From Acidocella aquatica (GTDB lineage: Bacteria; Pseudomonadota; Alphaproteobacteria; Acetobacterales; Acetobacteraceae): a stretch of 64,000 bases of DNA. The stretch is from positions 1 through 64,000 of the forward strand of contig NZ_BSOS01000073.1 of assembly GCF_030160635.1 (NCBI RefSeq). The letters run 5' to 3'. Shown here one piece after another: positions 59,751 to 62,148 of the stretch. The position numbers and the translations under genes are program-made. Within the stretch, counting starts at the first letter, position 1; each line of letters starts with the position of its first letter. The notes under the pieces are model-generated. The model did not search any database. It was not told the origin of the DNA and saw only the letters and a list, made by a program, of their open reading frames with translations.

Positions 59751-60305
59751 ATGGCTGGTACGTCAGAACATGCAGTGGGGCACGGCGGGGACTCCCGGCG
59801 TGATTTTTTGAAAATCCTTACCGTGGCAACAGGGGTCGTGGGCGCCGGGGCGGTCATCTGGCCGTTCATTGACGCTCTGGGGCCCGATGCCGATGGCACG
59901 GCGGCGGCGCACCTCATCGTCGATGTCGCCGGCATCCCTGAAAATACCGCGATCACCGTCACCTGGAACGGCCTGCCGATCTACATCCGCAAGCTCACCG
60001 CGCAACAAATCGCCGACACCCAGGCCGTGGTGACCAGCACATTGGTTGACCCCGCCGATTTCGCCAGCCGCGTGAAGCCCGGTTATGACAGTTTCGTCGT
60101 CGTGGTGGGTCTCAACACCGGCTCCCCCTGCGCGCTGGAAGGCAACGCCCCCGCCGACCCGCGCGGCCCCTTTGACGGCTGGCTCTCCCCTTGCGACGGC
60201 AGCGTCTACGACCCTCTGGGCCGCGTGCGCGGCGGCCCGGCGACCAAAAATCTGGCGATTCCGCGCTTCAAATTCATCAACGACGCGCAAATTCAGTTCG
60301 GCTGA
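59751..60305 (+). CDS. petA: Rieske-type bc1 subunit lacking all four cluster ligands
   Basis: A 184-residue protein with the usual bc1 iron-sulphur subunit layout: RRDFL Tat-type signal, membrane helix (about 21-41), then the Rieske fold. The cluster loops align without gaps to the family, but CTHLGC reads NTGSPC (122-127) and CPCHGS reads SPCDGS (146-151). Thus Asn122, Gly124, Ser146 and Asp149 replace Cys, His, Cys and His, while the disulphide cysteines Cys127 and Cys148 remain. A [2Fe-2S] cluster is not expected. AGGAG precedes the ATG; cytochrome b follows 11 bases later. Confidence 0.9.
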   Translation: MAGTSEHAVGHGGDSRRDFLKILTVATGVVGAGAVIWPFIDALGPDADGTAAAHLIVDVAGIPENTAITVTWNGLPIYIRKLTAQQIADTQAVVTSTLVDPADFASRVKPGYDSFVVVVGLNTGSPCALEGNAPADPRGPFDGWLSPCDGSVYDPLGRVRGGPATKNLAIPRFKFINDAQIQFG

Positions 60306-60316
60306 GGATCAGCAAT

Positions 60317-61438
60317 ATGAGCACAGACGTTAAAAAATCCTGGCTGGCCTCCCGGCTGCCCTGCCCCGCCAAGGAAGCGGGCAGCTGCGCCCCCACGCTG
60401 GAGCGCGGCGCGCCATATGCAGCCACGCTGCCGGCGCTCATCACCGGCGCGGTGCTGTTCCTGCTCGCCTCCGGCCTGGTGCTGGCGGTGTATTACAACC
60501 CGGCGCACGGGTTTGACTCCATCCAGTTCATCGCCCGCAACGTCAACAGCGGCTGGCTGATCCAAGGCTTCCACACCACCGGCGTGACAATGCTCTTCGC
60601 CGCTGTCTACTGGCTGCTCTTTCGCGACATCTACACCGGCGCCTACCGGGCTCCCGGCGAGCTGGTCTGGCTGCTGCGCGTCAAGCTGTTCGCCCTGCTG
60701 CTGCTCGTTGGCTGGCTCGGCTATACCTTAAGCGACGGCGCGGTCTCCTACTGGAGCCTCACCAATGCCACCACCGCCGCCACCGCCCTGGGCGGCGTGG
60801 CGGGCGTCATCGGCCGCTGGTTCTTCGGCGGGCCGAACGGTGCCGGCACCCTCGCCCGGCTGGAAGTTTTCCACGCCGTGCTGGCGCTGGCCGCCCTCGG
60901 CACTCTTGGGGCAAGCCGCTGCGCCGCACGCGCGCTGGCCCGCCAGACCAAGCCGCAACATCCGGTGAGCTGCCACCCTTACTACACATCGCAGACCTTC
61001 GCGGCCTTCGCGGTGTTCGCGCTCATCTTCGCGGTGCTGATGTTCTTCGCGCCACATTATGGGCTCAACCCCCTCAACCGCGCCGCGTCCGACTCTCTCA
61101 TCGTCCCCGCCGTGCTCAGCCCGCCCTGGTATCTGTCCCCGGTCAGCGCCGTGGCCTCGGTGTTCTCCACCGCCGCGGGCAGCATCTTCGGCGCCATCGT
61201 CATGCTGGCCGTCCTCGCGGCCCTGCCCTGGCTCGACCGTTCATCCCCCAACAGCAAGCGCGGCCTGTTCTACCGCCTGCTGACGGGCCTACTGCTGCTC
61301 GATGTCATCGGCCTGGGCTGGAGCGTATCCGACCCCGCCTGCACCATATCCGGCAGCCTCACGGTGGTTTTCACCATCTGGTATTTTTTCCACTTCCTGG
61401 TGCTTACCCCGCTGGTCACAGCCTTGGAGGCTAAATAA
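60317..61438 (+). CDS. petB: Cytochrome b of bc1 complex, divergent (heme bH ligands lost)
   Basis: A 373-residue membrane protein, shorter than usual. RNVNSGWLIQGFHTTG (helix B) keeps heme bL His86, and LEVFHAVLALA (helix D) keeps His186. The bH partners 14 residues later are Leu100 (YWLLFR for YIHIFR) and Ser200. The PEWY quinol-site motif is PPWY (269-272), and the PWGQMSFW segment is SDGAVSYW. About eight helices remain. Family is certain from the whole-length pattern, Q-cycle function doubtful. The stop overlaps the c1 ATG (TAATG). Confidence 0.9.
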   Translation: MSTDVKKSWLASRLPCPAKEAGSCAPTLERGAPYAATLPALITGAVLFLLASGLVLAVYYNPAHGFDSIQFIARNVNSGWLIQGFHTTGVTMLFAAVYWLLFRDIYTGAYRAPGELVWLLRVKLFALLLLVGWLGYTLSDGAVSYWSLTNATTAATALGGVAGVIGRWFFGGPNGAGTLARLEVFHAVLALAALGTLGASRCAARALARQTKPQHPVSCHPYYTSQTFAAFAVFALIFAVLMFFAPHYGLNPLNRAASDSLIVPAVLSPPWYLSPVSAVASVFSTAAGSIFGAIVMLAVLAALPWLDRSSPNSKRGLFYRLLTGLLLLDVIGLGWSVSDPACTISGSLTVVFTIWYFFHFLVLTPLVTALEAK

Positions 61439-62148
61439 TGCGCCGTATTTTTGCTCCCATCCTGGCCGCCGGCCTGTTGTTCAGCGCCGCCGCACACGCC
61501 GAAGACACCCTGAACCCCCCGCACTGGCAGTCGCAGGGCACCTTCGGCAGCTACGATAAAGCCGCCGTGCAACGCGGTTTCCTGGTCTACCAGAGCGTAT
61601 GCGCCAGCTGCCACGCCGCCAATGCGCTGCACTACCGCGACCTTGAAGCCCTTGGCTTCTCCCCAGATCAAGCCGCCGGCATCGCCGCCAGCGTGAAACT
61701 GGCGGACGGTTCGCCCGCCACGCTGGATGACACCTTCAAGGCCCCGTCCGTTGGCGCCGCCGCATTCGGAGGCGCCTTGCCGCCGGACCTCTCCACCATC
61801 GAGAGCGCCCGCACGCACGGGCTGAACTATGTCTACAATCTACTCACCGGCTATGCCGCCGCCCCCGCGAGCGTGACCCTGCTGCCCGGCCGGTTCTACA
61901 ACACCGCCTACCCCGGCCAGCAGATCGCCATGCCCCAGCCGCTGAAGGGTAACGAGGTCACCTACGCCGACGGCACCGCCGCCACCCTGCCGCAGGAAGC
62001 CTCCGACGTTTCCGCCTTCCTCGCCTGGTCCGCCGACCCGAACCTGAACGCGCGCCACGAGATCGGTCTGCGCGCCGTTCTCTTCCTGGCGTTTCTGAGC
62101 ATCATCGCCATCGCGGCGAAGCGCAAAATTTGGCGCGAGACGGCCTAA
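61438..62148 (+). CDS. petC: Cytochrome c1
   Basis: A 236-residue cytochrome c1. A signal peptide (about 1-21, ending AHAE) precedes the heme motif CASCH (55-59). PPDLS, LLTGY, IAMPQPL (Met165, axial ligand) and the C-terminal membrane anchor (about 210-228) are typical. The heme c site thus looks complete, unlike the other two subunits. A strong terminator follows. Confidence 0.93.
   Translation: MRRIFAPILAAGLLFSAAAHAEDTLNPPHWQSQGTFGSYDKAAVQRGFLVYQSVCASCHAANALHYRDLEALGFSPDQAAGIAASVKLADGSPATLDDTFKAPSVGAAAFGGALPPDLSTIESARTHGLNYVYNLLTGYAAAPASVTLLPGRFYNTAYPGQQIAMPQPLKGNEVTYADGTAATLPQEASDVSAFLAWSADPNLNARHEIGLRAVLFLAFLSIIAIAAKRKIWRETA

Follow-up and report, generated by a model that had tools for sequence, protein, structure and literature searches.

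The petABC operon of Acidocella aquatica, found at positions 59751–62148 of the 64,000-nucleotide stretch of contig NZ_BSOS01000073.1 analysed here (the window), is best explained as encoding a cytochrome bc1 complex that is apparently dead as a catalyst and would be kept as a membrane assembly, a putative haem-supported scaffold; we put the probability of this reading at roughly 0.58. Absent by sequence are the ligands of the Rieske [2Fe-2S] cluster, the glutamate of the quinol oxidation (Qo) site and a complete ligand pair for haem bH, and because these are absent the Q cycle, on established bc1 chemistry, cannot run. Selection has kept the sites for haem bL and haem c1, the membrane anchor of the Rieske protein, its twin-arginine translocation (Tat) motif and its two disulphide cysteines. 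The source genome, in which the locus lies on contig C73, measures 4.03 Mb, and its closest named relatives are Acidocella metagenome-assembled genomes (MAGs) and, more distantly, A. aromatica DSM 27026.

The first gene of the operon, petA (59751–60305, forward strand, as are all features given below for the window), is an intact open reading frame (ORF) for a Rieske-type subunit of 184 amino acids in which the twin-arginine signal and the transmembrane anchor are kept and the cluster ligands replaced. The protein aligns over its full length with bc1 Rieske proteins (best Protein Data Bank (PDB) match 2yiu_C, E = 1.8e-31), matches the NCBIfam model TIGR01416 over its full length with 131.4 bits, above the cut-off of 97.4, and matches PF10399 (UCR_Fe-S_N) with 51.2 bits in its Tat segment and N-terminal anchor. 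It has no match to the cluster-domain family PF00355 at E-values up to 0.001, nor in a second search up to 1, and a PF00355 profile search of the source genome matched 32 other places, petA not among them. Both cluster-binding motifs align without gaps. Loop 1 (60114–60131) reads N122-T-G124-S-P-C127 for the canonical C-T-H-L-G-C, and loop 2 (60186–60203) reads S146-P-C148-D149-G-S for the canonical C-P-C-H-G-S, such that N122, G124, S146 and D149 occupy the ligand positions, C127 and C148 are the disulphide cysteines, and the two cysteine and two histidine [2Fe-2S] ligands of a TIGR01416 Rieske protein are missing. A fold prediction for PetA, made from an alignment of 11 sequences only, has a mean predicted local distance difference test (pLDDT) score of 46.5, too low for the model to inform on the pocket.

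We found petA in 35 of 38 Acidocella genomes, including all 23 with completeness of at least 90% and contamination of at most 5%, and none of the 35 matches contains an internal stop; the three genomes lacking a match are 77–85% complete, and in one of these, G333, c1 and a portion of petB were found. Since 35 of 38 genomes carry it, the altered gene is no strain defect, error or product of chance, and a sequencing error or a lone decayed strain is ruled out. Ligands were counted in 34 of the 35 petA-bearing genomes, G308 being excluded as its match spans residues 83–184 only. N122 (for the first ligand cysteine), D149 (for the second ligand histidine), C127 and C148 are each present in 34 of 34, as is the Tat-like motif [RK]RxFL, while position 124 (the first histidine) carries Gly in 28 genomes and Ala in the other 6, and position 146 (the second cysteine) carries Cys in 22 and Ser in 12. 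The quartets are NGCD (17 genomes), NGSD (11), NACD (5) and NASD (1), which means that 12 of the 34 genomes have lost every one of the four ligands and the other 22 have lost three. The first-pass annotation of the window had described four replaced ligands, two retained disulphide cysteines and an intact frame, and had named agreement among relatives as what would separate a real change from the decay of a single strain; the gap-free positions, the genus-wide C127 and C148, the 34 of 34 counts for the first cysteine to Asn and second histidine to Asp changes, and the 35 petA matches free of stops bear it out on each of these points. It had asked whether the same replacements occur in several genera. 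They are genus-wide in Acidocella, and degenerate Rieske proteins are found also in four Acidiphilium genomes (below). Of the 252 non-Acidocella genomes of the family with a petA match, 53 loci were read and every one has the canonical ligands, these loci (23 and 30, from two search sets) being the best-scoring and hand-picked weak-scoring ones and not a random sample. In addition, 21 of 21 comparator loci from six genera have both canonical Rieske ligands and the PEWY motif of cytochrome b. One locus (L089), in a MAG titled Rhodovastum atsumiense, has an Acidocella-type operon, and the title is probably wrong.

The same counts bear on the idea that the Rieske pocket has been remodelled to hold another metal through Asn, Asp and Cys ligands. 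The invariance of N122 and D149 and the presence of Cys at position 146 in 22 of 34 genomes would be expected of such a site, but position 124 is Gly or Ala, position 146 is Ser in the remaining 12 genomes, and the two other cysteines are expected to be tied up in the disulphide, which leaves few ligands; we consider this explanation very improbable.

The first-pass annotation had placed petA in a normal petABC operon, which the second gene contradicts, as petB (60317–61438; cytochrome b, 373 amino acids) is as altered as petA. PetB matches solved cytochrome b structures, and its residues are described here with the yeast numbering and the assignment of ligands to haem bL and haem bH that we take to apply. 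Of the four haem b histidines needed in a functional bc1, the bL pair is kept in Acidocella, with His86 (60572–60574; yeast H82) in 34 of 34 genomes and His186 (60872–60874; yeast H183) in 33 of 34, the exception being G326 with Leu, and the bH pair is lost. In the window the bH positions are Leu100 (60614–60616; yeast H96) and Ser200 (60914–60916; yeast H197), and across the genus the pair is complete in none of 34 genomes, one His remaining in 18 and none in 16. The Glu of PEWY at the Qo site (yeast E272) is replaced by Pro270 (61124–61126), giving xPWY in 34 of 34 Acidocella and Pro in 45 of 45 Acidocella and Acidiphilium genomes together, and the residues of the quinone reduction (Qi) site are lost as well; those aligned with Trp142, His202, Lys228 and Asp229 are all replaced in the 34 genomes. 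The third gene, petC (61438–62148; cytochrome c1, 236 amino acids), keeps its CASCH motif and axial Met165, and CxxCH and Met are kept in 32 of 32 Acidocella genomes, the other two of the 34 having no complete petC in the extracted stretch. A second, canonical petABC elsewhere in the source genome was considered and rejected, as no further cytochrome c1 was found there (a single PF02167 match), although the 32 PF00355 matches were not inspected individually. Compared with the alphaproteobacterial bc1 complex (petABC; PDB 2yiu and 9fks), the operon is thus alike in gene order, subunit lengths, Tat signal and anchor, and haem bL and c1 sites, and differs in lacking the full [2Fe-2S] ligand set, the haem bH pair, the PEWY Glu and the Qi His, Lys and Asp.

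To characterize selection on the operon, ratios of non-synonymous to synonymous substitution rates (dN/dS) were calculated by the method of Nei and Gojobori (NG86) in five Acidocella subclades that cover 22 of the 34 aligned genomes. They range over 0.08–0.21 for petA, 0.16–0.43 for petB and 0.09–0.19 for petC, and over 0.09–0.34, 0.01–0.33 and 0.06–0.48, respectively, in six canonical genera. Before restriction to core regions, comparator values had reached 1.60 (petA, g4) and 0.67 (petC, g92), which we took as fragmentary extraction, and a rerun on the core regions gave 0.34 and 0.23 for these two, with petC of g45 (0.48) and g4 (0.44) still high. In the window's own subclade (6 genomes) the values are 0.18 for petA, 0.26 for petB and 0.19 for petC, beside 0.12 for hemF, 0.12 for mtnP, 0.13 for rplM and 0.07 for rpsI among the neighbouring genes (6, 5, 3 and 3 sequences), and over all Acidocella pairs with dS of 0.1–1.5 they are 0.30, 0.48 and 0.27 for petA, petB and petC. 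As dN/dS lies well below 1 across the subclades, petABC is under purifying selection in Acidocella, weakest on petB, and the selection on a ligand-free Rieske scaffold that the first-pass annotation had raised is found genus-wide. The rates of individual sites in cytochrome b (34 genomes; rank 1 is the slowest of 373) place the haem bL histidines at ranks 5 and 16 and the former bH positions Leu100 and Ser200 at 341 and 288, and in petA N122 and D149 are invariant despite variation at the third base (AAC in 23 and AAT in 11; GAC in 15 and GAT in 19). By these patterns, selection seems still to maintain the membrane portion of the complex together with two haem sites.

In the sister genus Acidiphilium the complex is reduced in steps. 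Among 13 genomes, a c1 match was found in 11 and a cytochrome b match in 11, and two, G305 (99% complete) and G299 (83% complete), have neither. All 11 cytochromes b have Pro for the Glu of PEWY and keep the bL pair, none has the bH histidines, and CxxCH is kept in all 11 cytochromes c1. Four genomes (G300, G302, G304 and G263) have degenerate Rieske heads, and six of the 11 (G288, G096, G303, G232, G301 and G153) have only an anchor, a Rieske ORF of 47–73 codons directly 5' of petB (loci L164, L165, L168, L169, L171 and L173) that ends only a few bases from where petB begins; four of the six ORFs have profile support, and those of G232 and G153 are identified by their position and alignment. 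The pair G288/G096 differs in this ORF by dN 0.039 and dS 0.295, and the pair G232/G303 by dN 0.277 and dS 0.667. The remaining genome, G196 (L174), reads as an intermediate, with all four Rieske ligands (CPHRGC, CPCHGA) beside a cytochrome b that has PPWY and lacks the bH ligands. Its genus is called Acidiphilium here since a small contig of G232, of the same genus, is identical over 8,000 compared bases to a plasmid of Acidiphilium multivorum AIU301; a plasmid search with a contig of G153 (L218) gave no match. In three Acidiphilium loci (L170, L171 and L173) the cytochrome c1 is shortened, with its IAM motif gone and CxxCH kept.

A petB tree places Acidocella (34) and Acidiphilium (11) on separate sides of a branch (support 100/100 and 100/99); it was drawn with a midpoint root and carries a long-branch warning, and the clade status of both holds if it is rooted on the four canonical rows. 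Within Acidiphilium, G301 groups with the head-bearing G263 (100/100), and G196 with G153, G288 and G096 (90/84, not strong), groupings by which the Rieske head was probably lost more than once. In a petA tree (26 rows, with 17 of the 34 Acidocella) the branches are too long for the grouping of the Acidiphilium heads to be read, and the order of loss therefore rests on the petB tree and the residue tables.

Several of these results weigh against a scaffold kept by selection. In the window's subclade petB is less constrained than its neighbours (0.26 versus 0.07–0.13), and its dN/dS rises to 0.48 across all Acidocella pairs in the dS range given above. In Acidiphilium, where dN/dS is 0.11–0.42 for petB and 0.13–0.57 for petC (four small groups, mostly of one pair each), constraint is weaker in places, with 0.57 for petC and 0.42 for petB in the single pair G232/G303; of the 10 c1 genes that are complete, 3 lack IAM, the motif of the axial Met (the c1 gene of G304 is cut by a contig end); and the lack of any petB or petC match in G305 and G299, 2 of 13 genomes, means that the complex is dispensable at least there. 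A slow decay without function, the operon being a relic on its way to loss, would account for the relaxed petB and for the stepwise reduction down to G305 and G299. We think it unlikely, given that none of the 35 Acidocella petA matches has a stop, that dN/dS in Acidocella lies within the range of the canonical genera, and that the new residues N122, D149 and P270 are invariant while their codons drift synonymously; with no stops in petA and subclade ratios of 0.08–0.43, the genes do not look like pseudogenes. The alternative offered in the first-pass annotation, an early stage of loss, finds no support in Acidocella, and the stepwise course in Acidiphilium does show such reduction.

In older work, loss of the haem bL ligands was reported to prevent assembly of bc1. 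For a dead complex that is retained as a membrane assembly we propose the following picture. PetA, PetB and PetC would be made and assembled, with haem bL and haem c1 retained since cytochromes b and c1 would need them to fold and assemble, and Asn122, Asp149 and the Cys127–Cys148 disulphide may staple the two former cluster loops together; the finished complex could then serve as the structural partner of another respiratory component. The Acidiphilium genomes in which the Rieske head is gone and the membrane anchor is kept beside petB, six of 11, support this reading. In yeast, the bL site is the first to be filled by haem during assembly, according to PMC9502982, and a Rhodobacter capsulatus mutant, H212N, is described in PMC4807273 as a "heme bH knock-out" bc1. 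Like the Acidocella complex that mutant lacks a bH ligand; the paper describes it as impaired at the bH/Qi site, and it is a one-residue laboratory mutant with no Rieske or Qo change reported in the available text of that paper.

Alternatively, the complex could retain a reduced redox function. Cytochrome c1 would then be a cytochrome c fixed to the membrane, taking electrons from periplasmic donors and handing them to an aa3 oxidase; cytochrome b and the Rieske protein would serve to mount it, and haem bL might accept electrons on the side. The source genome has an oxidase subunit II (L040) with a CuA-like motif, which we take, from this motif, to belong to an aa3-type enzyme. It also has another haem-copper oxidase, without that motif in its subunit II, which we presume to be bo3. 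Given the CuA-like subunit, c-type cytochromes are probably still oxidised. The invariant CxxCH and Met of c1 in all 32 Acidocella genomes agree with this function, and iron oxidation through Cyc2 and Cyc1 has been proposed in PMC10715153 as an electron source for c cytochromes. The conserved altered Rieske loops and the bL pair would, however, be left without explanation, and in Acidiphilium it is the IAM motif of c1 that is absent in 3 of the 10 complete genes, yet the bL histidines that are kept in all 11. We give a redox role a fairly low probability.

The core finding is already published. Degli Esposti et al. (2023; PMC10715153) described a "deranged" bc1 in Acidocella and Acidiphilium which, like the one seen here, has a cytochrome b without the bH histidines and an intact c1, so that the "new type" of bc1 subunit anticipated for the window stands as to selection across the genus and not as to novelty. 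Their text states that the gene of the iron-sulphur protein (ISP, the Rieske subunit) is lacking in Acidiphilium and that bH losses always accompany ISP losses, and it mentions one Acidisoma taxon with features in between; PMC5322542 likewise gives Acidiphilium as lacking the ISP. In contrast to the main account in PMC10715153, the Acidiphilium genomes studied here carry anchor-only or degenerate-head Rieske ORFs, and in G196 an ISP with its four ligands complete stands beside a cytochrome b devoid of bH ligands. The published account is adjusted accordingly: Acidiphilium has Rieske remnants, and in one genome bH was lost without loss of the Rieske ligands. A word search of the main text of PMC10715153 found neither PEWY nor purifying, and in the sections consulted we found no selection statistics, no contrast of bL and bH rates, no PEWY change, no anchor ORFs of Acidiphilium, no intermediate such as G196 and no comparison with Complex I like that given below. 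A literature search for a ligand-less Rieske pseudoenzyme or a degenerate bc1 found no further report on the subject among the papers listed.

The structural partner suggested in print (PMC10715153) is Complex I, which the dead bc1 would stabilise in a supercomplex; this is a special case of the scaffold explanation, and its probability is contained in that of the latter. The source genome does have full-length NuoD and NuoA. We compared the distributions of the two complexes in draft or single genomes per species, testing 17 of the 40 family genomes without a Rieske match, 14 of which also lack a c1 match. Four of these 14 (G012, G054, G131 and G144) have no PF00346 match or only a weak one, which fits a joint loss, but the other ten (G008, G023, G037, G046, G053, G079, G085, G100, G126 and G149) keep a strong NuoD match and NuoA and have no cytochrome b (PF13631) match. 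Both Acidiphilium genomes without petB or petC matches, G305 and G299, have NuoD and NuoA as well (petA was not searched there), G305 with three NuoA matches. Conversely, Acidocella G315 (L144, 96% complete) has the altered petABC, lacks NuoA and matches PF00346 only weakly (E = 1.1e-21), and possibly has no Complex I; G321 (86% complete) and G326 (77%) show the same pattern, and G061, G066 and G101, genomes of acetous size, have petA and c1 matches and no NuoA. Since each complex occurs without the other in some genomes of the family, Complex I is doubtful as the general reason for the retention of bc1, which weakens the structural explanation offered in the 2023 main text; a stabilising role in Acidocella is not refuted by these gene contents, and we judge Complex I an improbable partner. 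On this distribution, the aa3 oxidase or a c-type cytochrome is no less likely to be the partner.

Taking the two genera together, we tentatively propose, as a possibility that goes beyond the scaffold reading, that Complex III became, in Acidocella and Acidiphilium, a non-catalytic membrane assembly under selection, which retains haem bL, haem c and the Rieske anchor but has lost the chemistry. Cytochrome b would have changed first, and the Rieske protein later and more than once. As its retention would not be tied to Complex I, the assembly may have a structural bc1 role not described before, for instance in keeping the aa3 oxidase or a c-type cytochrome in place. A bc1 found in nature without its chemistry and still maintained by selection would allow what Complex III does as a structure to be told apart from what it does as a catalyst, and cultured Acidocella species exist in which a deletion test of the question is feasible. 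Two further observations were made in the genomes compared. The c1 match of G061 (L181, G061:C3:1150482-1151075) was reported by the search with an internal TAA, and the genome G000 has NuoD and NuoA matches at two loci, on C12 and C7, and apparently two Complex I operons.
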